DNA from: Asparagopsis taxiformis
Taxonomy: Eukaryota > Rhodophyta > Florideophyceae > Bonnemaisoniales > Bonnemaisoniaceae
Length of the DNA stretch: 64,000 nt
Assembly (NCBI GenBank): GCA_030407315.1
Contig: JALQPE010002839.1
Location: 1 to 64,000, forward strand
Reading direction: 5' to 3'
Positions 11,462 through 55,904 of this stretch are shown piece by piece. How positions within the stretch are numbered: position 1 is the stretch's first letter; the number at the start of each line of letters is the position of its first letter. The translations under genes and the position numbers were made by a program. Below the pieces are notes generated by a model. That model was given only the letters and a program-made list of their open reading frames with translations, was not told the DNA's origin and made no database searches.

Positions 11462-11499
11462 GTACGTGCGCGAATCTTGATCAAGATTCGCGCACGTAC
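11462..11499. repeat. 38-bp perfect palindrome
   Basis: GTACGTGCGCGAATCTTGA and its reverse complement meet with no spacer at 11480/11481. It is the core of the longer 126-bp palindrome kept in copy 3 (44813-44938). Copies 1 and 2 have lost most of the left arm. Confidence 0.9.
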
Positions 11500-11624: not shown

Positions 11625-12604
11625 GATGGAAGAGAGGTACGTGAAGTTTTGAAAGTATGCTGTGAGGGAAGGTTGATTTTGAGTCTGACTGTTGTGGTTG
11701 ATTCCGATGTTGTGTAGATGATGCAGGAATGTTGATGACGGAAGGTAAGTTTCATTGAGTGCCAAGATGTGCTTTGCGAAGATATGGACTGCTGACTATG
11801 ATTATTGTTAGTTGCAAGGTTTTTGGATCATGGTTTGTATTGTGTGTAGGATGGATGAGAGGTACATTTGCGAGTTCTCAGGGTATGTAGCGAGGGAAAC
11901 GTTGGTTTTCAATCTGACTGTTGCGATTGAATCCGATGTTGCGTAGGTGATGGAGGAATAGTGATGACGGAAGGTAAGTCACATTGGGCGCCCAGACCGG
12001 TTGTGCGAAGATGCGGAATGCTGACTACTTTTCTTGGCTACACGATTACGTGATTTATGGTTTTTATTGTGTGCAGGATGGAACAGGTAAAGTAAGTGTG
12101 CGAGTTTTGAAAGTAAGCAGCGAGGGAAGGTTGGTTTTGAGTCTGACTATTTCCGTTGATGCGATATTTTTCATTGGAAGCCTATTGAGTCATGGTGTGT
12201 ATTGTGTGGAGCGAAGGTAAGTGTGCGAGTTTTGAAAGTATGCTGTGATGGAAGGTTGGTTTTGAGTCTGACTGTTGTGGTTGATTCCGATGTTGTGTAG
12301 ATGATGCAGGAATGTTGATGACAGAAGGTAAGTTTTACTGAGCACCAAGACTTGTTTTGCGAAGATATGGACTGCTGACTTTGATTATTCATTGCAAGGT
12401 TTTTGGATCATGGTTTGTATTTTGTGTAGGATGGATGATTCAGTCATCCTCTCGGAGAGGTAAGTAAGGAGTTTCTAGGATATCTGTCGTGGTAAGCGTT
12501 GCTTTTGAGTCTGACTGTTGTGGTTGATTCTGATGTTGTGTATGTGATGCAGGAGTGGTGAAGCAGGAACGGCAGGACTGAAGGAGAGTGAAGAAGGGAT
12601 GTAG
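11625..12604 (+). CDS. Putative micro-exon gene of AB copy 1 (multi-exon, 5' exon not found)
   Basis: Exons are inferred at 11625-11636, 11727-11744, 11850-11861, 11956-11973, 12077-12091, 12310-12327, 12430-12459 and 12553-12604. Their lengths are 12, 18, 12, 18, 15, 18, 30 and then a terminal exon, so all internal ones are multiples of 3. Most acceptors end TGTGTAG, GTGCAG or GATGCAG (the first and fourth are weaker, ending GGAG). Most donors start GTAAGT or GTAC. Introns are about 90-105 nt (one is 218) with CTGAC branch-like sites. Every junction falls after AG, giving AG|G = Arg. Read this way the exons encode alternating MEE-R and NVDDG-R units and finish SGEAGTAGLKESEEGM then TAG (12602). 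The same structure recurs in copies 2-4. The protein would be short, charged and repetitive. Only RNA data can prove splicing; an alternative is a tandem intron-like repeat without coding function. Confidence 0.5.
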
Positions 12605-13018: not shown

Positions 13019-13142
13019 GAGAGACGTATTGTATACGAGCAGTTTCCTAAATGAGAGAATAAAATACGGTCCGATATGGGCCCTGAATTTACCATCCGCT
13101 GTAATTTCTTCCCTCCCGGTTTTCGCTGATATATTGTATACT

Positions 13143-13701
13143 GGATGTCGGGTCCTAGTATTCCGCCATATGTACTAGAGAAAGTGGATGTCGGGTCCTA
13201 GTATTCCGCCATATGTACTAGAGAAAGTGGATGTCGGGTCCTAGTATTCCGCCATATGTACTAGAGAAAGTGGATGTCGGGTCCTAGTATTCCGCCATAT
13301 GTACTAGAGAAAGTGGATGTCGGGTCCTAGTATTCCGCCATATGTACTAGAGAAAGTGGATGTCGGGTCCTAGTATTCCGCCAAACGTACTAGAGAAAGT
13401 GGATGTCGGGTCCTAGTATTCCGCCATATGTACTAGAGAAAGTGGATGTCGGGTCCTAGTATTCCGCCATATGTACTAGAGAAAGTGGATGTCGGGTCCT
13501 AGTATTCCGCCAAACGTACTAGAGAAAGTGGATGTCGGGTCCTAGTATTCCGCCATATGTACTAGAGAAAGTGGATGTCGGGTCCTAGTATTCCGCCATA
13601 TGTACTAGAGAAAGTGGATGTCGGGTCCTAGTATTCCGCCATATGTACTAGAGAAAGTGGATGTCGGGCCCTAGTATTCCGCCATATGTACTAGAGAAAG
13701 T
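13143..13701. repeat. 43-bp minisatellite, 13 units, AB copy 1
   Basis: Units begin GGATGTCGGGTCCTAGTATT and end TACTAGAGAAAGT. Thirteen exact-length units fill 13143-13701. Variation between units is minimal (CATATG versus CAAACG). Copies 2, 3 and 4 have 4, 3 and 3 units at the same place. Confidence 0.95.
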
Positions 13702-13833
13702 GGACGTCCGCATCCAAAAATTTTTTATTTTTTTTTGGACGCGGACGTTCATTTGTTCTAGTAAATCTCGGGGCCGACTAGGACCCGTACTAGAGAGACT
13801 GGACGTCCGCGTCCACTTCCGAAAACACAGACG
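13702..13833 (+). repeat. Conserved right terminus of AB element, copy 1
   Basis: It contains GGACGTCCGCATCC, an A/T run, GGACGCGGACGTTC, TACTAGAGAGACTGGACGTC, and ends CCGAAAACACAGACG. Equivalent termini are at 21586-21716, 42942-43072 (inverted), 50724-50854 (inverted) and, diverged, at 59878 onward (inverted). GGACGTCC and TCTAGTA motifs repeat inside it, as in subterminal transposase-binding regions. Confidence 0.85.
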
Positions 13834-13869
13834 TTATGCGTGCAGATGCAAAATACACGACCAAGTTGA

Positions 13870-14066
13870 AATGGACGCCCGGTGGATGTCCAGCTCAGTT
13901 GCATTGCTGTCCAGCCCAGAAATTCTACAATTCAGGGCAGAAAAAAATATTGCAAAAAACATCGATTTCAGCGGGTCGATTGTGCCGTACGGCACACCCC
14001 CATCTCAAAAACATGTTCACATGTGCATGTTTTTGAGAATAGCCCAAATTTTAATTCAAATCAGGA
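13870..14066 (+). repeat. Hairpin module at the left end of AB copy 2
   Basis: It has GTGCCGTACGGCAC and the CTCAAAAACATG / CATGTTTTTGAG inverted repeat, and is otherwise like module 3. Only one module is present here, against three in copy 1. Confidence 0.8.
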
Positions 14067-14293
14067 CGTCTTCCGGACATAGGGGTGCTCGCGGCCTAGC
14101 TCGACAGCTGTAATTGTACCTCATTAAATACTCTTGATGACTGCCTACCGTATACAATCTGGACTGTTGGCGTATTCTCCGGTACTTGACCTGAACGTTC
14201 ATCGCAGACCGTTGTGGGTACCGACACTATACAGAAATCTTTTTTGTATCTCGTGCAATCCGATTGTACCATCGCTTCGGGGAAAGCTTCATT

Positions 14294-16621
14294 ATGCCGC
14301 CGCGTATTGCGAAGAAAGCTCCAAAGCCTCCGGGCCTCCAGAAAACCCGGTCAGCAGCTGCTGTATCGAGTGCCCGACAATCCCGTGCGAAGAAGCGGTC
14401 TGGGTCTACCGGCAGCATTGAACCGCGGTCCGGTAGTCGCAAGACGGACCGGCGCAGAACTGGGGATCCGCAGTGCGAAAGTGAGGAAGGAGGAACGGCG
14501 CGGAGAGAGATGGTGCTTGACCGAGCCAAGCGTGCTCTCAGGGACAGTGAACATCATGATGATGACATGATAGTGGCTCAAAACATGTTGGAATTGCGGC
14601 AGATTGCTATGGCAAAGGTAGTTCCTCCCGGGTTGGCAGATGCGGAGGTGCTGCAGACGGAGTCCCAGCCGGGGGTTCCCGAGACACTGGAGGCTGTGAC
14701 CCCCACTACGCCAACTATGCCGAGTACATCAGCCCCAGCAGGTAATGCAGTCAGGGACCCGAGGATAGCGGCAAGGGATGTTGTTTCTGAGCAACGTTCA
14801 CAGGATGCCAACTATCATCGGCGGTCAGGTGGTACTGAGGGGAGAGAGCAGCCGGAGTGCGGGCCTCGTCACAACAGACCGTCATTGGTGCCAAATATGC
14901 GCGTAACGCCCCCGCGACGTCAGGCTATTGCCGATGGAGGACATCATAATCCCGATAGCGTGGGAGATGGGGGGACGGTGAGGGCAGAGAGGTTGCATCC
15001 GCCGGAATCCATCGATTTAATGGCGAGTCGCATCAATGCGCAGAAGAAGAAGATCGCGGAGCTGGAAAAAAAGTGTTTAGCCAGGACATAGCAAACAAGG
15101 CGCTCACCACGGAGATAGTTGCGTTGGAGGCTAAGGTGAAGACTCTGCAGGCGGAAAATGCCAGCCTTACTGCAATTGCGAGAACAGGTAGAATCAGTGA
15201 TCACGGTGGCGGTAAGTCGAAAATACAGAAAGCCATTCCTGTGAAATACCTTGGAGTTCTTAGGGCGGTTGAGGAAAACCTGACAAAGTGGTGCAAGAAC
15301 GAGACTATGGAGCTGGACCCTATAGCGGAACAAACGCAGAGACATTGGACTGGACGTACCATCGAGGTAGAGCCAGTAGAAGGGACACTTTGGAGCGAAA
15401 ACGGTGTAGGATATATTGCTACCCCTCCGGGCTATCATCAAGAATATGCAGTGGTATACACCTTCGTACAGGGACGAGAGTGATCTGCTGAATGACTTGG
15501 TGCGACACGTACTGCGTCAAAGTCCGTGGTGCGATGTGTTTTCCGATGAGGAGCAGCGTGGAACGCTTCTCCTCATCGGAAAACACATCACACCAGCACA
15601 CAGTGTGTGCTGTCAAGAGGCTGTGGCGGGGAGCAAGGCATTGAAAGTGAAGGTGACGCAGAAACTGTCAGACGTGATGAGTGCACGGAAGCGTAATGCG
15701 AGGGACAGATTGTTCGGTTCGCTGGGGTACACGAAATTAATGTCTAGATGCACGATGCTGACGACGCGAGCTGAGATGGACGAGCGAGCGGATCAAAAGC
15801 GCGAAGCGTCTGAGAAGCTTTTGAAACGGGAAAGCAACGGTGATTTGGATATGGGGAGGTGGCGAACGGCACCGTTCTCAGAGCTGCGATACAGCAAAGG
15901 CATGGTTCCTGACAGCTTCGAAATGGAAGTGAATGGTGATGCATGGTTTAACAACCGAGTAGCTGTGAATGTACTGGACATCTTCAGGGGGTATTCGATA
16001 CGACCAGAACAAGTAATGGACATAGAGACGAGCATACTAACGCTGGCGCGCCTGGATGCTTGGCTAGTGACTACTGTGGAGTGTTTGGATGAACCGAAGG
16101 GGAAAGGAGGTGCACGGCAGAAGTAGTTTACAAGGAGGTACAGTCAATATGTGGGGGTAGCTTTTCAGCAATTTGTTGGTATGGTGGTGTACTGCATGTC
16201 TTGTCTCCAAGGCTCGCAAGCAAGGGAAGAAACGGACGTTGTCGAGAGCGAACAGCGAACTAGTGCACAGTCACGGCATGTGTTTGCAAGCCGTACTGTA
16301 ACGAGAGAGGCTGTTGAAGTGTGGCAAAGCGGAGAGGGGTCTGGAATTGTTCATGTCGTTGATGATGTAAACCGCTGCTCATCACTTGTTCTAGTGTCCG
16401 AGGATTGGATTCAATCGCATATTACGTCAAACCTCGGTGTTGTAATGGATTGTGTGATTGCGCAAGGACTAATTGGCGCAGAACTTTTCGTCGTTGACCC
16501 ATATGCTGGACACCTGAGTGCAAACCTGAATGTCGAAATCAATGCCCCACAGTATGGGGGCATGGAGCGGCGCCATGCAGCCACTGCTGATAACGGTTTT
16601 GGCGTAATGGAGGATGGTTGA
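14294..16621 (+). pseudogene. Gene B of AB copy 2, frameshifted, with complete N-terminus
   Basis: This copy shows the full start (MPPRIAKKAPKPPG, basic and Ser-rich), which copy 3 lacks. Together they suggest an ancestral protein of about 761 aa. Order: about 72 basic residues, an acidic HHDDD patch, a Pro/Arg-rich linker, a coiled coil (about 15025-15190), and a conserved C-terminal region. Lesions are a frameshift near 15073, a 2-bp loss near 15432, a local inverted duplication at 15559-15605 and a TAG at about 16124. The function is unknown. An accessory transposon protein is the simplest inference, since it travels with gene A in all three long copies. Confidence 0.75.
15533..15589. repeat. 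Local inverted duplication inside gene B of copy 2
   Basis: GATGTGTTTTCCGATGAGGAG (15533-15553) is repeated as its exact reverse complement at 15569-15589. Copies 1 and 3 lack the second arm and run directly into GTGTGTGCTGTC. It looks like a template-switch mutation and it disrupts the B frame. Confidence 0.9.
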
Positions 16622-16698: not shown

Positions 16699-19600
16699 TT
16701 ATTCTTCTTCATTATCATCTGTGAACTGGTAATCAGTGTTGGTGTAGAAGCGGTTGAGATAGAAACGGTGGTCCGACCAGTGCATTTGTTTCGTAAATGG
16801 CTTGACTGGAAAGTTACTTCGTACGATGTGCACGGTGCCAGATATAGTAGATGCAGGAATGAGGTCAAACCAAGGACTACCTGCACTGTGGGATGCAGTG
16901 TCATTGCTGTCAACGGATCCGTTGTCCGGGTCCCATGTGGACCACTTTAAACAAATGCACCCAAGTGATTTTTCCACAGCGGTTTTTGGGGCAAAGCAGG
17001 TCATATACTGAACGAAAGCGAGTTCTACAGGTTGAAACAGGTTTGGAGACTGCAGGCGTACCAGTGCCAGGACGCGCCCTACCCATATGGTTCTGTAGTC
17101 ATCGGCAGTTCCGGAGATGACGACAAAGGAGTACTGCGATCTCTTTGCGGGGCCGAATGATGAAGTTGCAAAGACGCGCTGCTGCTTGTGCCTCGGCACG
17201 TTTGTGGGGCGAAGCATGCCACTGTGCGGGTCAAAGTCGTCGGCATCTGGGACGTACCCTCCCATGACGTAGGCGGACTTTACCACGGTGACGGAAATGT
17301 CCATGTCATGTATTGGAGGGCCTTCTGCCGTGGCGCGCAGTCTAGCGAGGGTGAGGAACGCTTGTGCAGCTGTGTCACCGAGTTGCTGGAATAGCGTTAT
17401 GGTGCCAGACGGGAACGAGGAGTTGTGCAGAGGCAAAAGAGTGGCAGGATCGGGCTGTCCGTCGATATCTGCAACGAGGAGGGTTGCATCGGGCAGCAGG
17501 GAGGCAAAGTCGTGCAGTGCAACGGTGAATCCGTCGCGAACGAGTACTGCACCGTCTGTGGGCGATATCATGCGTGGGTTTCCCAATGTGTTGGATGGGG
17601 TGTGACCAGTTGGAGTGGCCAAGGAGAATTCCATGTGGCGAATAGTCTCTTCCATGGCTGTGGAGCGCCTTCGAGAGGTTTTCCTATAACTCTGTTTGAA
17701 CAGAAGATGCTAGTGTTCGTAGGGGCCTGCATCAATGTGTTCCAGGGCGCCATATCTCTGCAAGTCACCGGGAAGATGGTCAAGAAGATGGAACTTGAAA
17801 GTTTTGAGACCTGTGGTGTGGAATGGGCCGAGGGTGGAGAGCATTGATTGTTTGAAATAGGAAATGGAGTTCTGGAGGCTTTCAAGTTCGGCGGCAGTCC
17901 AGTGCTTGATGCGACCGCGTTCCATGACCCATGCGACGAGGTCAGAGTATTGCGTGCAGATGGAAGTGAGGGGGGCTGTCTCTACTTCGTCACAGCATGT
18001 GTCAATGAATGCTGCGATGAAAGGGAACACCATGTCGACATGGTGATAGTCTTTGGCTGCGAGCATGCCGCGTATGCCGTCCTCCGTGAAGAGGCCGTTC
18101 AAATTGGTGCCCTTCTCACCCTTGGAGAAGTCGACATGAAGACCGGTGATGTAGTAGTCGCGTTCGATAGCGGACAGAATGCTGTTTGAGCCGGCGAGGA
18201 TGGATTTTTTCACCTTCTTGAAGGTGCGAGGTGTCCCGGAACGGGAGGCAGTGGTGGTGGTGAGGTCTGGGGAGCTGAGGCGGTGGACAATGCACTGTTT
18301 GATGAGCTTTGAGATGCCGAGGTGGAGATTGTGCAGAGGCTCGAAGGAGAAAATGTTGTAGGGGTCTAGGGGACTGTTGGTGGGTAAAAGAGCGGTCGAT
18401 TCGAGGACAGAGTGTTGTTCGAGGAGGGAGAGAGCTTCGAGCGGGGCAGTTGTATGCTCCTGAGCGCTCTCTTGGCGTGCAGAGCGTGTATCATCAAGGG
18501 AGCGGGGCTGGTGTGGCGCGCTGGATTCAAGTTGAGTGGCGGGGATGTAGCAGCTGTGGCAGGGATGTGTGGTGGTAGTGCTGTTGCGAGTGCATGACAG
18601 CTCTTTGGCCTCTGGAAAGTCGCAGCAATAATTGGCTAGGATGGGAAAGCATTGGCGGGCAGTTGCAGTGGAGTCTGTGCAGGGGAACCCGGAAGAGAAC
18701 GCGGTGGATAGGGACGAAAACACTTTTTCGAGTGCTTTATGAAGAATATCAATTTTGCGAGCGCGACTAGCAGAACTAGAGGTTGTCGGCATTTCATCAC
18801 CGAACAAGGCGTTGGACGAAGGGTTAACAATGTACGGAAGATACCCGACGATGGTGAGGCCGGTACGGATGCAGTGGCGACGGAGGGGGGCGGAGAAGTT
18901 GAGCAGTGTGACGTGTATGGGGTATGCGACGATTGCGGAGCTCTTGAGGCTTGTGCTGCTCTTGTCGGAGTACACTTGGAGGAGGCCGGCAAAGGAGGAA
19001 GCGGTGGGATCAGTTTCTTCTGCCCATACGACCTGTGGATCTTCCGAGAGCTGCACGCGCTGTCTAGTAACCTGGTGCAGCGTTTTCGCGAATTCTGTGT
19101 GTAGGGGATGAGAAAATATTGCGGTGCCGTCTGGGGCGGTCTGTGGGGAGGGGTGGAAGAGAGTATTTTGGTCGTTAGCCAGTGCTAACTGCCTGCGGAG
19201 CATGTCGACTGGGTCGCGGAGGTACAGCTGTGCCGAGTACTTACCAGTTTTGTCTGGAATGATGTGGCTCTTGTAACCTTCGGTGCGGAAATGTGTTTCG
19301 ACCATGGAAGCGGTAACGTGGCGACATTCTTCTACGGTGCGAACGGCGCTGTTGAACTTTTCTAGGGAGAATGCGGGGTCTTGTAGGATGGTGATGACTT
19401 CGCTCACGCGGCCAGCGCCGGCCTTGTACTCGAGGGTTGTGAGACTGGCGGCGAGGGATTGCACGAGGAGGTCTGCGCGGGAGGGGGTTGAGGTTGGTGG
19501 CAGTGGAGCGTCACAGGGTGAGTCGCTGGAGGAAGCACGACCAGATTCTGGGTCTGGGGAGCTGGGTTGCGGGGAATCATGGTCGCCGTTTCGAGCAGGC

Positions 19601-19740
19601 TCATGGGTGACGGCAGGGACACGAGCGTTGTTGAAATGTTGGGGAGAGGGGTTGAAACGGTAGCGACACGTTCGCTCATGCAGCGCGAGCGCATAGGCAT
19701 CTACGCAGTAGTAGAAGCACCCTTCATACTTGCATTCCAT
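16699..19740 (-). pseudogene. Gene A of AB copy 2: CMC/Plavaka/KDZ-like transposase, 1013 aa with one stop
   Basis: One frame runs 1014 codons from MECKYEGC (19740) to DNEEE, broken only by TAG at 17710-17712 where copy 3 has TCG (Ser). Domains by residue: a Cys/His cluster at 1-25 (C3, C8, C12, H21, C25), likely a zinc finger; a Pro/Ser-rich linker; FEPLHNLHLGISK at about 465; a helical region at about 560-640; KFHLLDHLPGDLQRYG at about 645, then GPYEH..LLFKQSYR; and a C-terminal WFDLIPAS..SGTVHIVR at about 960. The D/E-PLHN-LG block, K-H-L-H...G...E-H..FK..YR and terminal IP...VH..R pattern resemble transposases of CMC (CACTA), Plavaka and KDZ elements. It probably cuts and joins element ends. 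An E stands where related proteins often have D. Confidence 0.75.
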
Positions 19741-20375: not shown

Positions 20376-20501
20376 CTTCGTTCCATCCTCTACCCTCGAG
20401 GGTATGCATTGAGGGAAGCGTGGGTTTTGAGTCTGACTATTTCCGTTGATGCGATATTTTTCATTGGAAGCCTGTTGACTCATGGTGTGTATTGAGCGGA
20501 G

Positions 20502-20875
20502 GATGGAAGAGAGATACGTGAAGTTTTGAAAGTATGCTGCGAGGGAAGGTTGGTTCTGAGTCTGACTGTTGTGCTTGATTCCGATGTTGTGTAGATGATG
20601 CAGGAATGGTTATGACGGAGGGTAAGTTTCATTGAGCGCCAGGATTTGTTTTGCGAAGATATGGACTGCTGACTTTGATTATTCATTGCAAGGTTTTTGC
20701 ATCATGGTTTGTATTGTGTGTAGGATGGAAGAGAGGTAAGTAAGGGAGTTTCTAGGATATCTGGCGTGGTAAGCGTTGCTTTTGAATCTGACTGTTGGGG
20801 TTGATGTTGTGTATGTGATGCAGGAGTGGTGAAGCAGGAACGGCAGGACTCAAGGAGAGTGAAGAAGGGATCTAG
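20502..20875 (+). CDS. Micro-exon gene of AB copy 2, shortened array
   Basis: Exons are at 20502-20513, 20604-20621, 20724-20735 and 20824-20875, with introns of 90, 102 and 88 nt. The frame is kept across all junctions and ends SGEAGTAGLKESEEGI then TAG (20873). The first donor reads AT instead of GT, so this copy is probably impaired. It has three internal units against seven in copy 1, showing unit loss or gain. Confidence 0.4.
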
Positions 20876-31950: not shown

Positions 31951-32114
31951 CTAGTGTCTATCGGACAAGCAAATTTCCTCATATGAGGCCCAGAAAATTG
32001 ACCAAAAATTACGAAAAAACAGCCTTTGTTCATTCGGTTCGACTTCCAAAATTTTTTTTGCAACTTTTCTGCGTTTAATGATGTTCAGGAAGCCATAAAG
32101 ATAGAAGAACCGAT

Positions 32115-32485
32115 TATTGATGTTTGATCGTGCAACATTGCATTCAAAATGTTATACAGTGTACCACTTACAGTTTTAGTGGACAAAAGGGTTCACTACT
32201 CAACTCCACCAAATTGTTTGTACACCTTCCCGGAATGAAACTGTCTGAATATCCGCCAAACAATTGTTTTCTCTGCCTGACCGACTGTCCTTACACTTCG
32301 TGCCTCTCTATATAATACTGCTAGTCATCCTAAGACTATCGAAAGTCTCCCTTAAGGATAGACGACATCTCTTCTCGTAAACCATCTTGATCACCATTGT
32401 TCTATGCTCTCAAACTCATCGTCTCCTTCCGTTTATGCCTCAACCGCTTACAAGATCAAACATACCTGCACCAACGACCTTCTAT
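32115..32485 (+). repeat. 5' LTR of the copia element
   Basis: 371 bp, starting TATTGATGTTTGATCG and ending CCTTCTAT. A TATA box (CTCTATATAATACTG, about 32305-32319) likely drives transcription. The gag ATG is only 5 bp downstream of the LTR. Confidence 0.9.
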
Positions 32486-32489
32486 AGTT

Positions 32490-33398
32490 ATGGGCTCCAC
32501 CTCCACTGCTTCCGATACACCATCGCGCCCACGTTTTTCTTGGGACATCAAGACAGTTCCATGGACAGATGGGAATGGAAATCAAGAAGGCTATGCAAAC
32601 GCAGTTACATTATGGACTGCTTTCCACAATAAGCTTCCCGAAAATAACGGGAACAAGATTCCCGAAGAATTAAGGGGAATTATGCTACAGTCACAGCTAT
32701 ATGGCTGTGCACGCGATCTTGTAAAAAAGATTGATGTAACAGTGATACAATCTGTAGCTGGGGTTGATGCGATTGTATCTACAGTATACAAGCGCGACCC
32801 ACTTGCTGTCGTTAGTGGTGTTTACGAGGATTACACGAAGCTATTGAATACTAAGAGAGGATCAACTGAATATTTTTCCAATTTTGAATCACGCTTTGAA
32901 GCGCAAGTGTCAAGCTTCAATTCAAAGTCAATTATATGCAAGTTGCCTGATGCATTAGTAGCCTTTATGCTATTAGCAAACTCAAACGTTGATAATAATC
33001 AGCGCATATCAGTTCTAGCTGCATCTGCTCCTCGCGAGTCTGAATTCACAAGCAAGTCATCTACTGATGAATATCTAAAATCTATTTCGTACGAATCAAT
33101 TGCAACAGTCATACGTCAATGTGAAAAGAATTCTGCTTCTACACCAAAGGAAGCAATTAACAATTTCAGCTCCAATTATACGCCTCCATTCAGAGGCAAG
33201 AAAAAGTTAAGCCCAAAGAAACTAGCTGAATTGAAGGCTCGCTCTCGTTGTCGCAAGTGTCATAAGATTGGACACTGGGACAGTGACCATAACCCTGATG
33301 GGACAATTAATGCGGTTTCTATACCCACGCAATCATCATCCTCAAAAATGCCATTGAAAAGACAGTCACTTTCAGCATGGCTACCTTCAAGTCAATAG
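32490..33398 (+). CDS. copia gag polyprotein
   Basis: 302 aa from MGSTSTASDTPSRPRFSW. This start is chosen because it is the first ATG outside the LTR; the open frame extends upstream into the LTR. It carries the gag-type helical region and, at about residue 255, a zinc knuckle variant CRKCHKIGHWDSDH (CX2CX4HX4H, last Cys replaced by His). It forms the particle that packages element RNA. The last 22 nt overlap pol, which lies in the -1 frame, so pol is made by -1 frameshifting or re-initiation. Confidence 0.85.
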   Translation: MGSTSTASDTPSRPRFSWDIKTVPWTDGNGNQEGYANAVTLWTAFHNKLPENNGNKIPEELRGIMLQSQLYGCARDLVKKIDVTVIQSVAGVDAIVSTVYKRDPLAVVSGVYEDYTKLLNTKRGSTEYFSNFESRFEAQVSSFNSKSIICKLPDALVAFMLLANSNVDNNQRISVLAASAPRESEFTSKSSTDEYLKSISYESIATVIRQCEKNSASTPKEAINNFSSNYTPPFRGKKKLSPKKLAELKARSRCRKCHKIGHWDSDHNPDGTINAVSIPTQSSSSKMPLKRQSLSAWLPSSQ

Positions 33399-36300
33399 AG
33401 GAGTTCTCTATATATTACTATGGTCCTCTGTTGGATGATGGTGCTCCGTACAGTGGCATGGATATTGAAGAGTTCAAAATAATTCAGCCAATTATCTGTC
33501 CTGAGTGGAATGGGAAATTTGATGCATTACCGGAGTGTGTTTCAGACCGTCCATACTGGCAGTATGGAACTGGCACTCATTCAAGTCAGGCCCGCAAAAT
33601 AATTGGATCAGTGTTCCTCACAGCCATCGCAGATGAGGGATACCAAATCAATATCAAGCACTTGATTATCGAAGGCTCCTCACAATGGGTTGTTGGGAGA
33701 AACATAACAAAATATTGTGATATCCTACATATGAATAGGGACAAACTGAAGTTGCCTCCACTACAAACATCAATAGATGATGTTTCAATTAACCCCACCA
33801 TCTCCCTTATCACCAATGATCTACATTGTCATATTCCGCATGAGGTATTTCATTACCGAAATACTTCTCTGTCACCTCCACAGAGATCTTCTCTGTTTTG
33901 TGCAACAGCATCTTTTGGTACTGCTGACAACATTCGACCATGGAAACTCACCAAGTCTGTTGTGGACAAAGTACAGAGACACGTTTGTGGACACTCTACA
34001 TATTCGGACATTAAGGTCTTACTGCAGCGCAATGGTCTTTGGAGTCATGAAGTCAATAAGTACTTGATTCAAACTCTCAAAGACTGTCCATCCTGCAAGC
34101 TAACGTCGGAACCTAAACTTCCAAGAAAGGTTTCACTGAGCAGCTTGACTCGTTCATTCAATCAAGATGTTTGCATTGATCATTTTTATTTAGGTGACCA
34201 AATTGTATTTCACACAATGGACTCCACAACTAGATACTCTGCTGGTGTTGTAGTACCTAACACAACAATGAGAGAGGCCATTACAGCATTTGAGACATAT
34301 TGGATTACCCCTTTCTGGACCCCTTCCACAATTATCTTTGATCCTGCGTTTGACAATGAAATTTTCAACAAGTACCTGAACATGAACGGTATAAATGCAA
34401 GATCATTGCCCCCAAGGCGTCATAACAAAAATGTACTTGAGTCTAAACATGGGGTTATTCGCGAAATTTTTCTGAGATTGAAAAATGAGAATAGCAATGC
34501 TGCATATACCACTGACTTTTTGCTTGTTCAGCAGTCATTTCGCATTTCAAATGACCTCTATGGAAACGATGAGCTCTCGGCTCACGAACTTGCTAAGGGG
34601 TATACTAGGCCGGTTATTGCAGGTACATACCCTGTTGTGGTACTTGAAGAACTTATTGATGCTCAAAAAACTTTGGCATCCAAACGAAAACTCACTCTGA
34701 TTTTGCGCTCAAAAGCTACAGTCGATACTCCAGTGAAACCTGGTGATGTAGTCCAAGTTTTTATCAAGCTACAGCATGATAAGCGCGGAAAATGGTCTGG
34801 TCCGAAAACGGTATTGCATTATGACCCATCGTCACGTTGTGTTACTGTGCCTGGATCCAATGGTCGCAAAATTAGAGCTGCTGTCGAAGATGTTCGTTTT
34901 GACATTTCAAACAATACCATTTCACGTCAGATTCAAGAGGCAATTGACTGTCTGGATCGTGAAGTCGATGCATCACTACACTCTTTCTCAGATAGTACCA
35001 TCGATGAACCCTCTGCACAGATGAAAGACCTTGAATCTCAGAGCACTCAAAAGCGCATAGATGATGACGACTTTAGTCTTGCTCATGAAAACAATCATAA
35101 CACAAACCCAACTCAAGATGTAATGCCATCATTTGGAGATTCAATAGAAGTCTATTGGCCTTTAGACATGGAATATTACCGTGGCACAATATCCAAAATC
35201 ACCTCAGATGGTTCACAGCATCAGATCGAATACGAAGACGGGGATCAAGAGTTACTCAACCTCACTAATGAGAAGTGGAGAATGGCTGCAACACTTCAAC
35301 CTCACGATATCAAACTTACACCTGGTTCTCAACTCTCGAGCAAAGAGAAAGAAGACACTGAAGAATACTACAAAATGTTTGGAGAAAAAGAGTTTACGCT
35401 TAATCAAGCACAAGGGCTCCCCTCATATGTCACACACAACTCCTACATGAAGGAAGAAAACAGTTTTACGAACACTGTACGTCAAGTTGCAATACATAAG
35501 ATACCGCAGGGTGCAAATATAATCACTAGCCATGTTATCTACAAAGTGAAAACAGCTGATGATGGCACACGATACGTGAAGGCCCGAATAGCCCCTCATG
35601 GCAACAAGGACAGTGAAAAGGAACGACTTAAAACAGATTCGGCAACGTGTCCACCTGTTGGAATAAGAATGCTGCTATCCCTTGCTTCATACCATAACTG
35701 GCCAATTGGAAAAATAGACTTCTCTACTGCATTCTTACAGACTGGGAAGGCACTGAGAGATGTGTATGTAATTCCTCCGCGTGAATGTGAGAACAAATCT
35801 CGATTTTACTGGCTCCTACTTACTGCAATATATGGACTCGTCAATGCCAACGCAAAGTGGCAAGAGAACAGCGACAAATTTCTCTTCAGTATAGGATTTT
35901 CTCAGCTTGCATACGTTCCACAGCTCTTCTATCGAAAGAAAGAGTCAAGGTTATTGACAATTGCAGTCAAAGTTGTGGACGATATTTTGTTTGCTGCAGA
36001 GCTTCCAACTATTCAAGATACTATCCGCGCATCTCCAAGAATTACAAACTCGGTACTATTGTTTACGGTCCCGGAACTTTCAGTTTCTTTGGTCTCACTA
36101 TCACTCAAGAATCCGATTTTTCAATCATTATACATGGAGATCAGAAACTATCGAATCTACATGCCTACCCCATTGACCGAATAAGGCGCAAACAAATCGA
36201 GTCACCGTTGAATGATGTTGAGTTATCCTCTTTCAAATCTGTGAATAGCTCAATTGGCTGGCTTGGAATAGCCTCATCACCATTCTGTGCATTTGTCTCC

Positions 36301-36966
36301 AGCCATCTACAGCAAAGAGCTCCTAATGCCACAGTACATGAGTTGATCTCACAGATCAATTCACTCAAGTGGCTTAAGAAGCTTGGTTGTCGTATAAGCT
36401 ACAAAAGACCTTCTAGTTCAGATAACCATGACATCTCCATTGTTTCATTCGCTGATGCCAGCCGCGCTGCAGAGCATGGCCAGCTTGGACATGTCACTGG
36501 ACTACTATTCGGCCGACTTGAAAATGGATCGACTTTTCACACACTATCTTGGCAATCTCAAAAGTCTAAGCGCCCCGTCAAGTCAATTGGTTCAGCAGAG
36601 ATTCTTGCTACTGGTGCTGCCATTGATGAAGGAAAAATGCTATGCAAAGCATACAATGCTCTACTACAGGCTGAAGTTGGTCTACAGATTATTGTAGACT
36701 CGAAAGACCTTTTCGACACCATCTCTACGTGTCGGATGGCCACTGATCGCTCCATCAGAGCGGATGTTGCGTGGATTCGTTTTGAATTTGAGACTAAGGA
36801 GATTTCAAAGATGATATGGGTACCGGGAAAATCAAACCTGGCCGACCCGCTCACGAAAAGAAACAGCAGTATTTCTGTCCCCCTACAGCTTCTTATGTAT
36901 TCTGGAGAAATACCAACAGAGTTTGTAGATACCAAACTTCGATGCTCCAATCAATTCACTGGGTGA
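33377..36966 (+). pseudogene. copia pol polyprotein, single frameshift
   Basis: Frame one (33377-36184) starts MATFKSIEEFSIYYYGPLLD. It encodes the aspartic protease (DDGA), an integrase with a His/Cys finger (H..H..CPSC, about 33980-34100) and DDE residues (MDSTTRYS, FDPAFDNE, LESKHGVIRE), then reverse transcriptase (KIDFSTAFLQ, KVVDDILFA in place of the usual YVDD). Around 36028 one base appears lost: the continuation (ISKNYKLGTIVYGPG) is in another frame up to 36966. That part holds RNase H (SFADAS, SAEILA, DSKDLFD) and the connection LADPLTKR. All catalytic blocks are visible, so this is otherwise a functional-looking pol. A sequencing error at 36028 would make it intact. Confidence 0.9.
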
Positions 36967-36992
36967 CCACTACTTATCTGAAAGGGTAGGAG

Positions 36993-37363
36993 TATTGATG
37001 TTTGATCGTGCAACATTGCATTCAAAATGTTATACAGTGTACCACTTACAGTTTTAGTGGACAAAAGGGTTCACTACTCAACTCCACCAAATTGTTTGTA
37101 CACCTTCCCGGAATGAAACTGTCTGAATACCCGCCAAACAATTGTTTTCTCTGCCTGACCGACTGTCCTTACACTTCGTGCCTCTCTATATAATACTGCT
37201 AGTCATCCTAAGACTATCGAAAGTCTCCCTTAAGGATAGACGACATCTCTTCTCGTAAACCATCTTGATCACCATTGTTCTATGCTCTCAAACTCATCGT
37301 CTCCTTCCGTTTATGCCTCAACCGCTTACAAGATCAAACATACCTGCACCAACGACCTTCCAT
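36993..37363 (+). repeat. 3' LTR of the copia element
   Basis: 371 bp, preceded by a purine-rich tract GAAAGGGTAGGAG (polypurine tract). It differs from the 5' LTR by about two bases, one of them AATATCC versus AATACCC. Confidence 0.9.
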
Positions 37364-39569: not shown

Positions 39570-41995
39570 AAACGGAAGTTGAGTTCGGTTTGAGAATACT
39601 TCACAGAGTCGGCAAATGGGGAAGAAATCCGACAAAAGTGCATCAAATGCTCCATATCATTTAGTATCAACAGTGGTGTGTTGACGCTGACCAGACATGT
39701 GCGTAAGCATGGTTTTCTACTAAATAACGGTCAGAAAACGTTCAACAGGGATGGTTCATTGGCCGAAAAATTAATTCTTCCACGAGCCGAACTGCAAGAG
39801 CGTGTTTGTACGCAACTATCTCTTTAGATTGTGAGCAGTTTACATCCATTCTCCGCAGTAGAGAACGTTGAATTTGTTAAGCTCTTGAAGATATTGAACG
39901 AAGATGTCGATGTACCTCACAGAACGATAATACAGAGGAGAATCGATGAGATGTACGAAAAAAGTTCATCCACATGAAGGCCGCCCTTCAGAACGTCCCC
40001 GGAAAATTTAGTTTGACCACTGATGCATGGTCATCTCGTGTATACAAAGGATACATGGTCATTACGGCACATTGGGTGGACAGTAACTGGTGTCTGAAAG
40101 GATGCCTGCTAGATTTTTTCCGCTTCCCTACTCCGCATTGTAGCAGGTAGAAAATCTGCTAGAGCGGCAAACCACCCGACAGGTGTCCCGAGCCTCGGTA
40201 GAGGAGATGGTAGAGCAGATGAACCTTATAACGTACCCAGCCGGTAATCTCGTATGAGAGAAGGTATCGCTACCCGGAGGGGGTTGTGAGATTATAGCGC
40301 TCACGCGAGGTGCGTATTAATGGAGCAAAGTGACGTAATCCGTCGAGCTGTTGGCTAACCCTAAGGTTTTCCCGGAGAGGGGTTGAACAATAGGTATGCG
40401 AACACTGTTCCAGTGGGTCGTAATTCCACTTGAGTTTACGTTTCTCTAGAAACCGTGCCTACTGGCTATTCCAGTGGCGCATTTATACTAAGTCTACTGT
40501 AAGCTAGGGTTAGTGGTTAGGAATAAATATCCAGTTATTGACCAACCAGAGCCCAGTTAACGACACTCGCCTACCCGCGAGGTTATTGCCAGTTAGGCTT
40601 ACATTGTAATGTACAGCTGGTTAGCTTAAGTTAGAAATTTGTCCCTTGTGGGGTCTTGGCGGGGGCCGATAGGCCCAAATAGGGTGTTTACAGCCTTGCG
40701 CTTGTCCTAATTACAGGAAACACGCTCAGTTGGCTGGTGCCTTGTGATTGGCACGTCCCTTAAGTGGGCACCCAATAGGGAAGCGACACGACTCTGGTTG
40801 AGAGGACCACCAGGCGGTATGACAAGCATACGGGTGACGCTACTGCTCAGATTCTGATTGAAGTCATTGAAAAATGGGACTTGCGTGATTCCGTAGGATC
40901 GGTAACAACTGACAACGCTAGTGATATTTGCACCGGTGTGCGTATATTGCATGCGAAACTCAACGATGGAAGAAGAAATTTTGTACTTCTGCAGGAATTT
41001 CATGTGCGTTGCATGGCACATGTTATCAACATTGCAGTTAAAGATGCTTTAACATTGATATGTGCAGAAGTAAGCTCTGTAAGGAAATTTTGAATTAATT
41101 GAGGGCTTCTGTCAAACGGCGTGATACGTTTGAGAACGTCGCAATTGCTCTTGGGGAACCGAATGAAACATTTCCTGGGATAGATGTTGATACAAGGTAG
41201 TCGTCGACTTTCAAAATGATGCAGAAAGCGTTTGAAGTGAAAAAGGTTTTGAATACTGCTGTCAGTAACATTTCAGAGCTTAGGGAGTGGTCAATTGCTG
41301 ACTCAGATTGGCTCAAATCGAGGAAAATATGTGACATTCTACAGACTGCAGCTACTCTGACCGAAAATCAGTCAGGTAAGAAATATGTCACGTTGAGTGT
41401 ATGCTCGGAGGGATTCAAGCTCCTTTTGAGAAATTGCAACGCTGCTATTAATGAGAATGTCACAGTTTTGAGACCAATCGCCGAAAAAATGAAGATGAAA
41501 CTTGAGAAATATGAGAGTTTGGTGTGTTCCGACATAGCCTGTCTGGCGAGAATACTTGATCCTCGTTTTCCCAACGACATTTTACGGGATATCGACATAC
41601 TACGGCGTTATGTACCAATATCTACTGGCTCCAGCAGTGCATCCGGAATTCAAGCGGATGGAAGTATTTATAAATCGCTCGATGACCAACTATGGGATGA
41701 TGACGATTTTTGTCTCGGCGGAACGTCTAGTGACGAAATTCATCGCTTTCTGCAGGTAACGAATGCAGGGGATCGGTCAATTGACCCACTAACCTGGTGG
41801 GGAAATAATCAGGGTAGATTTCCTTCTATTGCAACTGTTGCGCGAAATGTGTTAGCCATTCAGGCCTCTTTTGTACCGAGTGAGAGCACTTTTTCTCTAG
41901 CAGGTATGATAGTAGATAATAGCAGGTGCTCGATAAGCTACAGACCAATCAAGTCTTGCCTACTTCTGAGTTCCTGGAATCGATTTTTGGAGTAA
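39570..41995 (+). pseudogene. hAT transposase, decayed and interrupted
   Basis: A BED zinc finger begins near 39580 (VxEYF, then KCIKC...TRHVRKH at 39637-39714). Its conserved Trp is now TGA (39591-39593). Next come FSLTTDAWSSRVYKGYMVIT (about 40010), ITAHW, and after the LTR insertion GDATAQILIEVIEKWD and TTDNASD of the RNase-H-like core. The C-terminal dimerisation block (VARNVLAIQASFVPSESTFSLA) is near 41835-41900. Lesions include a TAG near 39826, a TGA near 39974, a TGA near 41091 and a TAG near 41200. The solo LTR splits FPTPH from TGDA exactly. Inactive. Confidence 0.85.
40139..40824 (+). repeat. Solo LTR (686 bp) inside the hAT transposase
   Basis: It starts TGTAGCAGG and ends GTATGACA. 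It matches the LTR at 22905-23590 in inverse orientation over its whole length. It is flanked by CGCAT (40134-40138) and AGCAT (40825-40829), a 5-bp duplication with one mismatch. No internal retroelement sequence remains, so it arose by LTR-LTR recombination. Confidence 0.9.
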
Positions 41996-43763: not shown

Positions 43764-44746
43764 CTAGATCCCTTCTTCACACTCCTTGAGTCCTGCCGTT
43801 CTTGCTTCACTACTCCTGCATCACATACACAACATCAGAATCAACCACAACAGTCAAATTCAAAAGCAACGCTTACCACGCCAGATATCCTAGAAACTCC
43901 CTTACTTACCTCTCATCCATCCTACACACAATACAAACTATGATCCAAAAACCTTGCAATGAATAATAAAAGTCAGCAGTCAATATCTTCGCAAAACAAG
44001 TCTTGGTGCTCAGTGAAACTTACCTTCCGTCATCACCATTCCTGCATCATCTACACAACATCGGAATCAAGCACAACAGTCAGACTCAAAACCAACCTTC
44101 CCTCGAAGCATACTTTCAGAACTCGCACACTTACCTTCGCTCCACACAATACACACCATGACTCAATAGGCTTCTAATGAATGAATATTGGATCAACAGC
44201 AACAGTCAGACTCAAAACCAACCTTCCCTCGCTGCTTACTTTCAAAACTCGCACACTTACCTTACCTGTTCCATCCTGCACATAATAAAAACCATAAGTC
44301 ATGTAATCGTGTAGCCAAGAAAAGTAGTCAGCATTCCGCATCTTCGCACAACCGGACTGGGCGCCCAATGTGACTTGCCTTCCGTCATCACTATTCCTCC
44401 ATCACCTACACAACATCGGAATCAATCGCAACAGTCAGATTGAAAACCAACGTTTCCCTCGCTACATACCCTGAGAACTCGCAAATGTACCTCTCATCCA
44501 TCCTACACACAATACAAACCATGATCCAAAAACTTTGCAATGAATAATCATAGTCAGCAGTCCATATCTTCGCAAAGCACATCTTGGCACTCAATGAAAC
44601 TTACCCTCCGTCATCAACATTCCTGCATCATCTACACAACATCGGAATCAACCACAACAGTCAGACTCAAAACCAACCTTCCCTCGCAGCATACTTTCAA
44701 AACTTCACATACCTCTCTTCCATCCTCCGCTCAATACACACCATGA
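43764..44746 (-). CDS. Micro-exon gene of AB copy 3
   Basis: On the minus strand, exons include 44713-44724 (GATGGAAGAGAG), an 18-nt exon near 44605-44622, GATGGATGAGAG near 44495, an 18-nt exon near 44386 with a GC donor, GATGGAACAG near 44265, an 18-nt exon at 44024-44041, a 12-nt exon at 43910-43921 and the terminal exon at 43764-43815 ending KECEEGI then TAG. Order, lengths, phase and splice motifs match copy 1. One unit near 44130 has lost its acceptor, as in copy 1. Confidence 0.45.
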
Positions 44747-44812
44747 GTCAACATGCTTCCAAGGAAAAATATCGCATAAACGGAAATAGTCAGACTCAAA
44801 CTCCACGCTTCC

Positions 44813-51544: not shown

Positions 51545-52992
51545 CTAGATCCCTTCTTCACACTCCTTGAGTCCTGCCGTTCTTGCTTCACTACTCCTGC
51601 ATCACATACACAACATCAGAATCAACCACAACAGTCAAATTCAAAAGCAACGCTTACCACGCCAGATATCCTAGAAACTCCCTTGCTTACCTCTCATCCA
51701 TCCTACACACAATACAAACCATGATCCAAAAACCTTGCAATGAATAATCAAAGTCAGAAGTCCATATCTTCGCAAAACAAGTCTTGGTGCTCAATGAAAC
51801 TTACCTTCCGTCATCACCATTGCTGCATCACCTACACAAAATCGAAATCTACAACAACAGTCGGACTCAAAACCCACATGTCCCTCTCAGCATACTCTCA
51901 AAACTTGCGCACTTTCCTTCGCTTGACACAATACACATCATGACTGGATAAGCTTCCAATGAATCAATATCACATCAACTGCAATAGTCAGATTCGAAAC
52001 AATCACTTCCCTCGATGCATACCCTCAGAACTCACTTACCCTCGTTTCATTCTACACACAATACAGACCAAAAGTCGCAAATCGCACAACCAACAAATGA
52101 AGTCAGCATTCCGCATCTTCGCACCACCGGACTGGGCGCTCAATGCAACTTACCTTCCGTCATCACCATTCCTACATCACCTACAAAAAATCGAAATCAA
52201 CAACAACAGTCGGACTGAAAACCCATGCTTCCCTCGCTGCATACCCTCAGAACTCACTTACCCTCGATGTATCCTGCACGCAATAGAAACCATAAGTCAA
52301 AAATTGTACAAAAAAATGTAGTCAGCATTCCATATCTTCGCACAACTTAACTAGGCGCTCAATGTAACTTACCTTCCGTCATCACCATTCCAGAATCACC
52401 CACACAAAATCATCATCAACCACAACAGTCAGACTCAAAACCCACATTCCACTCACTGAACCCCTTAAATGCTCGCCTACCTCCCTTCCACCCTTCAGCG
52501 AATATGCACCATGACTCACTAAGCTCCCAATAAATAAATATTGCATGAAAGACGAAAGTCAAATTCAAAACAAACACTTCCCTCGCTTCATACCCTCAGG
52601 ACGCACTTAACCTCTTCATCTCCTTGCATCATGCACACAATACAACCAATAAGTCACAAATCGTGCAACGAACAAATGTAGTCAGCATTCCATTTCATCG
52701 CGAAACCCGTCTTTAAGCTCAATGAAACTTACCTTACTTCATCACTATTCCTGCACCACCTATACAACATCAAAATGAACCAGAACAGTCAGACTAAAAA
52801 CCCATGCATCCCTTATTGCACACCCGCGAGACTCACTTACTTACCTGCCTCCCATCGTTCACAACATGCAAACCATGACTCACGAAGCTTCTAATGAATC
52901 AATATCGCATCAACGACAACAGTACGACTCAAAACACACGCTTCCCTCGCTGCATACTCTCCAAACTGGCATACTCACAGTCGTTCTATCCT
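51545..52992 (-). pseudogene. Micro-exon array of AB copy 4, expanded and diverged
   Basis: At least ten minus-strand units alternate 12-nt and 18-nt exon-like blocks, each bounded by an AG acceptor and mostly a GTAAGT donor. Examples are GAATGGTGATGACGGAAG near 52163 and 52381, AATGAAACGAGG near 52038, and the terminal block ending in TAG near 51545. The 18-nt unit is more conserved than the 12-nt unit. Some acceptors and donors are lost, so this copy is probably not expressed as one product. Confidence 0.4.
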
Positions 52993-54094
52993 CTACACCA
53001 AACAAAGGAAACACGGCCAAAGAACCTCAGTCAGTGACGGCGGAGAAGTGGAACCTGCGGCGTCGACTGGACAGCTTTCAACGTCAGCTTAAGTCCTGCT
53101 GTGCATACTCCATATCATCGCCGGTATTGAGATTAATAATGGCCCAAGACATGGTCTCTGAACTCCCGAATGATGAGATCCGGATCGAGAACATCGAAAT
53201 GGTATAATCATATATATGACAATCCATTTGCTTCCCTTAAATGATCCCTGTAATATCCACTATAAAGCACAAACTTATTCCATGAAGTTCGCAATTAATA
53301 TAATTTTATTATTTTAAATGAATTAATTGAAAATCCATCTCCTACGGCGGTCATTCGTTCTTCCATGCACACGTTGCCAGCAAAATGTGTGACCTAGCAG
53401 TAGGTGATGATTGATCGCTCAGGTACATTCCACCATTGGACTGCCAGAAGTGAGCACAAAACTGATACCCAGAGAACCACGAGAACATTACAAACGAGGT
53501 CTCGAACGCACATTTACAATACAATATAAATACTATACAACAAACTCTACTCGCTATCTCAGACGACGCGGCTCACAAGTGGCGTAGTCCCAATTTTCCG
53601 TAACGCCTTTCCTGATGCGTAAAAGTAAAAAAACGTCAAAACGTAAATCAGAAATGAGTGCGAGAGTTTCCTGCACGGGAGATGATGGGCCACCAAGTTG
53701 ACTTTTTCGAAATTTTAGAATTTCTGGGCTGGCCAGCAGTGCAATCGAGCTGGACATCCACCGGACGTCCATTTCAGGTTGGTCGTGTGCTGCTCACATC
53801 TACGCATTACAGCAACCACGCAGGCGGGCCCACTGCTCATACGAAGTGCACGTAGTATGTGCAGCATGATGGGTGAGTAGTGTTTGTCGTGAGAAAGTGG
53901 GGTGGGGGCATGCCGAAACAAGGACCAAAACTTCGCCCTGGCGTATTGAGCCTGAGCCTGGAATTGACCCTTCGTGAGATGTGGCTTTGCTTACAGTTGG
54001 TGCTTACAGAAGCCAGCGATGGCCCCGCTCGGGGCGTCGGCTGGCTTCTTCTGGGGCCGTTGTGGCCAAATTAGAACCAAGCCTATGTCCGGCG

Positions 54095-54300
54095 GACGTC
54101 CTGAATTGCTTTATTTTTGGGCTATTCTCAAAAAACATGCACATGTGAACATGTTTTTGAGATGGGGGTGTGCCGTACGGCACTTTCGACCGCCCAAATC
54201 GATATAATTTTGCAATTTTTTTTCTGACTGAAATTTTAGAATTTCAGGGCTGACCAGCAATGCAACCGAGCCGAACTTCCACTGGACGTCCATTTCAAGT
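54095..54300 (-). repeat. Hairpin module, minus orientation
   Basis: It has GTGCCGTACGGCAC near 54170 and the 12-bp-arm hairpin near 54130-54163, with the TTTCTGACTG variant block. It is preceded at 53700-53785 by a partial module lacking the hairpins. Confidence 0.75.
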
Positions 54301-55010
54301 TAGGCGAGTGCTGCACATTTGCTCGCATCGCAGCAACTAAGCAAGTGTTGAGAGCACCGAGATGCCATGCAGACAAGAGGGAATCGGCTGCAAACGGCTT
54401 CCCTGGTCGGCAGCTGGATGTCTGGATGTCAATGGCTGCAAGCATGGAAATCTTGCTACCGCACGGCGCATACACACTGCAGCAGCACATCACTGACGCA
54501 TGCGAAAGTTGGGTGCTGCAGCGTGTGGTTGTTTGTGTGTTGGTGTGTTTGTGTGTGTACGACGAACCTTGTGGTATCCCTAGGCGCGCACTGGTACAAA
54601 ACGTTTGGACTGTCCCATCGGTCGTACTTTGACGCATTTACATGCATCGGAGAACGACCAAGGAGGTAGAGCAGCAATCGCTGTTGGCTGAGCGTCCAAA
54701 TTGGAGGGCTTGGGGCAATGGTTCTATAGCAGTCATTTATAGGACGCCCACCGTTGATGACTGAGATCCACGGTGGGTTTAGTATTCATGGTGTTGTCCT
54801 GCATTGGCGGACGTCGAAGACGAGTACTTCCAGTGAGCGTCCAAGCTGAATAGCTCAGCAGAGGATTATGATGTGGATGTGAAGGCAGGGATGAGGCCAG
54901 CAGGAACGTTTCTGCAAGATGGGCGTGAGTGGGTAAGTGAGCGGGGAGGGGCCGCTCGGGGCGCTTGGTAGCTTCTGGGGCCGTTGTGGCCAAATTAGAA
55001 CCAAGCCTAT
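54300..55010. other. Spacer between hairpin modules
   Basis: No gene. It shares with 55215-55905 a GGTCGGCAGC / ATGGCTGCA / CATACACACTGCAGC-type pattern, indicating a roughly 900-bp higher-order tandem unit. Confidence 0.4.
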
Positions 55011-55215
55011 GTCCGGCGGACGTCCTGAATTGCTTTATGTTTTGGGCTATTCTCAAAAACATGCACAAGTGAACATGTTTTTGAGATGGGGGTGTGCCGT
55101 ACGGCACTCTCGACCCCCAAATCGATACTTTTTTGCAATTTTTCCTCTACCCGAAATTTCAATATCTCTGGGCTGGGCAGCAATGAAATTGAGCCGGACG
55201 TCCATTTCAGGTTAG
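55010..55215 (-). repeat. Hairpin module, minus orientation
   Basis: It has GTGCCGTACGGCAC near 55094 and the hairpin with AACATG arms near 55055-55085. It is about 920 bp from the module at 54095. Confidence 0.75.
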
Positions 55216-55904
55216 TCGTATATTGGGCACCTGCACACATTGCAACAATGAAGCAGGCTATTATGGCACGGAGGTACCGTACCGACAACAGGCCATCGGA
55301 TGCGAGAGGCTATCCTGGTCGGCAGCCGGATGGCAATGGCTGCACCCATTGTCATCATGCTATTGCACGGAGCGCACACACTGCAGCACGGTACTGACGT
55401 TCGCGTCAGTGGCGTGGCGTGCGAGCCGTACGTGTTTGTATGTGTGTGTCTGTCAGCTGCTGCACATTGAAGTACTTCCCAGGTGTACCACTGGTCAACA
55501 ACGTTTTGAACTGTCACCTCAGTCATACTCCGACGCATGTACATGCAACGGAGAACGAATGAGATAGCAGAGCAGCAACCAATGCTGGCTGGATGTCCAA
55601 ATCGTCGGTGGACTCGAGGGCAATAGTAGCAGACATTCATCGAAGTCCACCACTGATGGGTGAGCTCCGCGATAGGTGTAGTTGTCGTGGTATTGTTCTA
55701 CAATTGTGGAAGTCGAAGACGACGAGCACATCCACTGGACGTCCAGGTTGACCAGCTGAGCGGAGGAGTATGATGTGGAGGTGAAGGCATTGGTGAGGCT
55801 GACTGGAACGGTTAAAAAGTATGGGCGTGAGCGGGGGAGGGAGGAACTCAGGGCCGCTCGGGGCACTGGATGGCTTCTGGGGCCGTTGTGGCCAAATTAG
55901 GCGA

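Follow-up and report, generated by a model that had tools for sequence, protein, structure and literature searches.

Does a DNA transposon of the red alga Asparagopsis taxiformis carry a gene made almost entirely of micro-exons, or do tandem repeats within it resemble one? The question is raised by positions 11625-12604 of the window (the 64,000-nt stretch of contig JALQPE010002839.1 analysed here), where a sequence-only reading had described a transposon-borne gene built of 12-nt and 18-nt micro-exons. We divided it into whether the array belongs to a transposon, whether its blocks are spliced, and whether the joined blocks encode a protein.

The array and the transposon that carries it

Array copy 1 consists of eight blocks of, in order, 12, 18, 12, 18, 15, 18, 30 and 52 nt, in tandem units of ∼229 bp (Table 1). 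The blocks and signals originally described were borne out in this copy: AG lies directly 5′ of all eight blocks, and the seven internal blocks are followed by GTAAGT (five), GTACGT (one) or GTACAT (one). The introns, given as about 90–105 nt with CTGAC sites, do fall within 90–105 nt, with the single exception of one spacer of 218 nt. This spacer holds a 5-nt block, CGAAG, that was absent from the original list, such that the claim that all internal blocks are multiples of three is correct for the seven listed blocks but not for this one. The AG/G phase is likewise not universal, as the 15-nt block ends AAA/GTAAGT. Blocks are 75% purine and introns 52%. Across 46 arrays, the 5-nt AG/CGAAG/GTAAGT form is present in 24 (eight classes, 44/46 arrays covered), the A3-type block measures 15 nt in 29 and 14 nt in 2 (the other 15 gave no match to the pattern), the A4-type block measures 30 nt in 30 and 12 nt in 15 (no such block was detected in the remaining one), and the last-exon frame runs open to TAG in 44.

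The claim that the array is transposon-borne is supported, since a Plavaka transposase lies beside it and the last exon recurs at 1,483 genomic places; the carrier is a Plavaka-type DNA transposon. A genome search for other arrays, proposed with the sequence-only reading, covered 141.5 Mb in 3,156 contigs and returned, besides these last exons, 4,446 places with the 18-nt block and its donor (both with up to 3 mismatches) and 825 with the 30-bp core of the palindrome at the array head, against 0 for each control. PF18759, the Plavaka transposase domain, scores 87.4 bits in the window copy (cut-off 26.3), while at locus L040 the transposase is a single 1,013-aa frame with PF18759 over residues 149–478 (E 1.9e-24, 86.9 bits). 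The transposase reads leftward and the array rightward. A second gene of the element is present as an uninterrupted 689-aa frame at 48635-50704 (−) and as a broken copy at 14264-16126 (+), and has weak Pfam matches only, below cut-off. Because the L040 transposase and the 689-aa frame are both uninterrupted, any genuine introns would appear to be limited to the array.

The same right end, ...AAAAC(A/G)CAGACG, was found at 13833, 21716, 42942 and 50724, with one base differing at 42942. Past the ends at 13833 and 50724 the next element picks up at an internal point of its sequence, an arrangement suggestive of nested insertion. At 59878 a sequence resembles an inverted right end, continues differently and may be the terminus of a short related element, and within 53500-63450 the left-arm repeat of the element (13856-14083) recurs in several diverged copies of reverse orientation. 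In the available part of the published description, Plavaka termini are TGT..ACA or CATCA..TGATG (PMC12730594). The element shares PF18759 with these CACTA/EnSpm-related transposons, whereas its right end, ...CAGACG, which alone was compared, fits neither terminus, and the same part of that description mentions no micro-exon array (PMC12730594).

Outside the genome, seven database proteins are related to the transposase among the best 7,982 candidates, one at 99% and six at 29–41% identity. The 99%-identical protein (P0001) is a 1,013-aa transposase with 16 member sequences and source ena; no locus for the transposase relatives was found in genome_contigs or viral_contigs. When a 38%-identical relative (P0003) served as query, the best 46 of 2,271 candidates were all 39–40% identical, 35 of these 46 had the same 1,037-aa open frame, and no second transposase family was seen among them. 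A search of Rfam gave no match at gathering scores.

Table 1. Blocks of array copy 1 and associated features of the window
Feature	Positions	Strand	Remarks
Palindrome, 38 bp, array head	11462..11499	+	Contains, inverted, the first-block donor side seen in copies without the palindrome
Putative micro-exon A1, 12 nt	11625..11636	+	MEER; AG before, GTACGT after
Putative intron, 90 nt	11637..11726	+	GTACGT; CTGAC 38 nt from 3′ end
Putative micro-exon B1, 18 nt	11727..11744	+	NVDDGR
Putative intron, 105 nt	11745..11849	+	GTAAGT; CTGAC 54 nt from 3′ end
Putative micro-exon A2, 12 nt	11850..11861	+	MDER
Putative intron, 94 nt	11862..11955	+	GTACAT
Putative micro-exon B2, 18 nt	11956..11973	+	NSDDGR
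Putative intron, 103 nt	11974..12076	+	GTAAGT
Putative micro-exon A3, 15 nt	12077..12091	+	Internal second GT gives 10-nt alternative
Putative intron, 218 nt	12092..12309	+	Two CTGAC; length applies if the 5-nt block within is skipped
Degenerate block CGAAG, 5 nt	12212..12216	+	AG before, GTAAGT after; inclusion breaks frame
Putative micro-exon B3, 18 nt	12310..12327	+	NVDDRR
Putative intron, 102 nt	12328..12429	+	GTAAGT
Putative micro-exon A4, 30 nt	12430..12459	+	12-nt form plus 18 nt
Putative intron, 93 nt	12460..12552	+	GTAAGT
Putative last exon, 52 nt	12553..12604	+	SGEAGTAGLKESEEGM; stop TAG
43-bp tandem repeats	13142..13708	+	Near right end of element 1
Right end of element 1	13774..13833	+	...AAAACACAGACG
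Transposase C-terminal part, element 2	16699..17655	−	Separate reading frame in window copy
Transposase N-terminal part, element 2	17710..19740	−	Divergent from array; PF18759 E 1.3e-24
Array copy 2	20402..20875	+	Blocks 20502-20513 (donor GT lost), 20604-20621, 20724-20735; last exon 20824-20875
Array copy 3	43764..44760	−	
Array copy 4	51545..53020	−	Old diverged subfamily without palindrome

Splice signals and their conservation

In copy 1, CTGAC occurs eight times on the sense strand and never on the opposite strand (shuffle mean 0.62, maximum 4), and strong donors occur seven times and never, respectively (shuffle mean 0.56, maximum 3), counts in which the repeated units are not independent of one another. 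The same strand preference was seen in all six arrays tested, where both signals were confined to the sense strand, and their counts exceeded every shuffle in five (copies 1, 3 and 4, L016 and L069), the short copy 2 being the exception. A cruder pattern of AG, 9 to 30 nt and donor exceeded the shuffle maximum only in copy 1, L016 and L069 (copy 2, 3 versus 6; copy 3, 8 versus 10; copy 4, 9 versus 9).

These signals can be set beside those of the host. Three host actin genes contain four introns of 88–104 nt, with donors GTACAT, GTACCT, GTTCGT and GTATGT and with CTAAC or CTAAT 30–39 nt before the intron end. The array introns are alike in length, and GTACAT is common to both; in contrast, their branch motif is CTGAC, their donors are mostly GTAAGT, and the distance from branch to acceptor is 38–54 nt. 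Host-type donor, branch, acceptor and length are all found in the array introns, as judged against the four actin introns only.

Selective conservation was analyzed by pairwise comparison of 10 units (out of 18 representatives, from 185 occurrences, 103 of them distinct, a few of which may be one place present in two overlapping loci). The donor of the 18-nt block showed a difference of 0.000, the CTGAC sites 0.04 and 0.09, and the 18-nt block 0.115, versus 0.21 and 0.23 for the intron bodies. Values for the acceptors were 0.13 and 0.22, for the 12-nt blocks 0.25 and 0.35, and for the donor of the first 12-nt block 0.359, at least that of the introns, with the values for the 12-nt blocks and this donor partly due to misalignment with the 5-nt form. 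In 18-nt windows along the unit, conservation is highest over the later portion of the 18-nt block (B1) and its donor, and the block itself ranks 25th of 219 windows. The sequence-only reading had proposed comparing block and intron substitution rates; the 18-nt block is conserved by this comparison and the 12-nt block is not. The 10 units had been chosen by block and donor, and the search was repeated from an intron anchor. GTAAGT was in place at 189/239 anchors, and 49 anchors had no close 18-nt block; among 40 of these that were listed, 38 lie outside arrays and the two within arrays each have a one-base deletion in the block. Since most intron anchors keep GTAAGT and those without the block lie mostly outside arrays, the choice of units did not create the conservation pattern.

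Whole copies were also compared, by aligning 38/43 array sequences to copy 1 as reference, without L033, L039, L042 and L065 and without window copies 2–4; five old-subfamily arrays in this set (L013, L015, L016, L069 and L070) differ in unit number, and some of their units may be mispaired. Variants shared by at least two copies occur at 160/691 intron sites and at fewer donor sites (4/48, Fisher p 0.018), branch sites (3/40, p 0.018) and sites of 18-nt blocks (6/54, p 0.042), with p values that are guides only, the repeats and units being related by shared ancestry. The 12-nt-class blocks (15/69) are similar to introns, and acceptors (6/24) are no more conserved than introns. The last exon (3/54, counting two bases past the stop) is not more conserved than its 3′ flank (12/253), and its constancy is partly built in, because 30 loci were retrieved by exact match to 31 bases covering about half of it. 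Private variants (18-nt blocks 4/54, donors 8/48, introns 69/691) show no clear depletion in blocks or donors, and private one-base indels among them may be assembly errors.

Since the introns are host-like, and since diverged units show conservation of the 18-nt block, of its donor and of the branch site, we consider it likely that the array is spliced, and that it serves a red-algal Plavaka-type DNA transposon as a spliced transcription unit. Transcription would start in the AT-rich stretch between the array and the transposase gene and run away from the latter. Host spliceosomes would then remove the 90–105-nt introns, guided by strong donors and the CTGAC branch, and join the purine-rich 12–30-nt blocks, with the 5-nt block most likely skipped. 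With all other internal blocks having lengths divisible by three, whole units could be gained or lost without a frame shift, perhaps by unequal exchange.

The tandem organization, by itself, would also suit an array that acts at the DNA level, bound by the transposase or a host protein or persisting as a passive satellite, and that is never spliced, its splice-like motifs being protein-binding sites that were duplicated along with each unit. Subterminal repeats are common in transposons, and the variability of acceptors and 12-nt blocks, which is like that of introns, fits this explanation, as does the want of a supported first exon (see below). We nevertheless find it unlikely, as donor and branch motifs are confined to one strand, follow the order needed for splicing and go with the intron length and donors of the host, and as the element already has other repeat arrays, of 24-bp and 43-bp units, closer to its end. 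Processed copies of the array were sought with spliced-junction patterns: the A/B and A/last-exon junctions had 0 matches in the genome, the B/A pattern had 3, at 3 mismatches and to one sequence, and was rejected against a control of 2, and no intron-less array copy was found by these searches.

The joined frame

Joined, the eight copy-1 blocks form one open frame of 57 codons, reading MEERNVDDGRMDERNSDDGRMEQVKNVDDRRMDDSVILSERSGEAGTAGLKESEEGM up to its TAG, in agreement with the alternating MEER and N-x-DDGR units and stop-bearing C-terminus first described. This frame has 0 stops and the other two have 11 and 2. An open frame by itself is weak evidence, because some frame also stays open in 4% (copy 1) and 8.8% (old subfamily) of within-exon shuffles. 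The same frame is open in two subfamilies, with 57 and 54 residues, where the old-subfamily blocks were picked by hand and those with lost sites skipped.

Changes shared among copies in the 18-nt and last exons divide into 1 synonymous and 11 non-synonymous, against a chance pool of 45 to 165 (∼21% synonymous). Separately, the 18-nt blocks show 0 and 6 (changes with at least 3 occurrences; chance pool 11 to 43) and the last exon 1 and 5 (34 to 122). In ten hand-listed 12-nt blocks the ratio is 3 to 9 against one reference and 2 to 10 against another, with chance pools of 4 to 32 and 6 to 30. The synonymous excess expected of protein-coding exons is absent from the 18-nt and last exons, in a count of few events, and the peptide sequence appears to bear no clear sign of being kept. 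The joined peptide had no candidate in the protein database and matched no Pfam family.

A start for the frame was sought upstream. An ATG frame beginning ACCATGGCT (MAWAIL...) reaches ...CGC CGC AG/G in the right phase, and was not accepted as first exon: it has an in-frame TGA in 22/44 sequences, and its CAG is followed by GC rather than GT in 43/44. Old-subfamily arrays (copy 4, L016, L069 and L070, outside the 44) have GTT at that position. No supported first exon was found in these 44 sequences upstream of arrays; the first 12-nt block has its own ATG in copy 1 and ATA in the old subfamily. A 218-aa antisense frame over the array was also set aside, as it probably reflects A/C-rich antisense composition.

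Coding is therefore a weaker case than splicing, because there is no synonymous excess and no supported first exon, the 12-nt blocks are unconserved and one block breaks the frame. Of the micro-exon gene as proposed, the exon–intron architecture holds up, with its host-like introns and conserved 18-nt block, donor and branch, while a transposon-borne protein-coding micro-exon gene is not shown. Judged by sequence, the chances are about even that the RNA would be translated into a small charged repeat peptide of the MEER-NxDDGR type.

The reading of the array as spliced includes a tentative one in which the product is non-coding, either a regulatory or leader RNA or a carrier of introns that raise expression, and the in-frame block lengths come by descent from one unit. 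Splice signals conserved without a sign of amino-acid constraint would be expected of such an RNA, no supported start exon was found, and GA-rich blocks resemble splicing enhancers. It accounts less well for a frame that is open in two diverged subfamilies (one with hand-chosen blocks) and for a change from 12 to 30 nt that is a multiple of three. A bolder idea, possible but in our view doubtful, is that of a mobile micro-exon gene that amplifies itself: a cut-and-paste transposon would carry a gene with almost all of its coding part made of tandemly amplified 12/18-nt micro-exons (plus variants of 15 and 30 nt), and from more than 1,000 genomic copies would come a range of in-frame repeat peptides with different numbers of units.

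Copies, known systems and genomic setting

When 18-nt blocks are counted over the 1,450 bases upstream of the last exon, at which distance longer arrays are cut, 33 of the 46 arrays have three, six have four, six have one and one has two. Copies 2, 3 and 4 had been said to keep blocks and phase while unit number changes; the unit number does differ, but copy 2 has AT in place of GT at its first donor, and copy 4 has CTG, not CAG, before one 18-nt block, as well as other blocks without acceptor or donor. The first block is present as a full inverted duplication in copy 3, with its left arm shortened in copies 1 and 2, and as a single block at L010 (acceptor GTGTAG, donor GTACGT), where the palindrome is absent. 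At L040 an inverted duplication of the ATATATGATT stretch, in the AT-rich region upstream of the array, resembles the array-head palindrome, and the element seems to have undergone small inverted duplications repeatedly.

The sites lost from copies 2 and 4 could mean that the array is a relic, once a spliced and perhaps coding gene and now a passive passenger decaying by mutation and recombination of its units. The frame-breaking 5-nt block in 24/46 arrays, the stop in the upstream frame of 22/44 sequences and the missing synonymous excess in the 18-nt and last exons would follow from such decay. Decay is hard to square with the conservation, between diverged units, of the donor and branch site that flank the 18-nt block, or with the window copy of the abundant subfamily, which keeps eight blocks in frame, and we regard it as improbable.

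A multi-exon gene is found in a related transposon class, in maize En/Spm (CACTA), whose tnpA reportedly has many exons, of ordinary length and not tandem copies. Runs of very short exons also characterize the micro-exon genes (MEGs) of schistosomes, which, in the available part of the source, have exons of 3–81 bp, long introns of up to 5 kb and secreted products (PMC10526429). Eight consecutive putative exons of the array fit the short-exon definition of MEGs, and the 5-nt ninth breaks the frame. The array differs in its short introns of 90–105 nt (one of 218 nt), which do not fit the long-intron definition, in being made of tandem units inside a transposon, and in that no signal peptide is known. 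Among the best matches listed in a literature search, no paper was found on a transposon with a micro-exon gene, and among the matches listed none on Plavaka in red algae.

If the array is spliced, one transposon family would have seeded thousands of micro-exon/intron pairs (4,446 matches) in a red alga, a lineage usually described as intron-poor. Its arrays of varied unit number would form a natural series for testing the recognition of 12–18-nt exons, and would suggest a route by which micro-exon genes arise through tandem duplication. If it is not spliced, it would be a striking case of repeats that convincingly mimic spliced exons.

The published A. taxiformis assembly, in the available part of its description, has 142,472,235 bp in 3,308 contigs, with 33.48% DNA transposons, and PRJNA809757 is given there as the accession for the sequencing data of A. 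taxiformis L6 (PMC12115072). Other mobile sequences in the window include a Copia-type reverse transcriptase (RVT_2) at 32112-37289, between 300-nt direct repeats that are 99% alike, which is probably a young LTR retrotransposon, and a C-terminal fragment of a hAT transposase at 41216-41995. Elsewhere in the genome, and pointing to a red-algal host, all nine phycobiliprotein matches above 160 bits (two equal in score) fall on a single contig, C469, adjoining an atpB-like frame.
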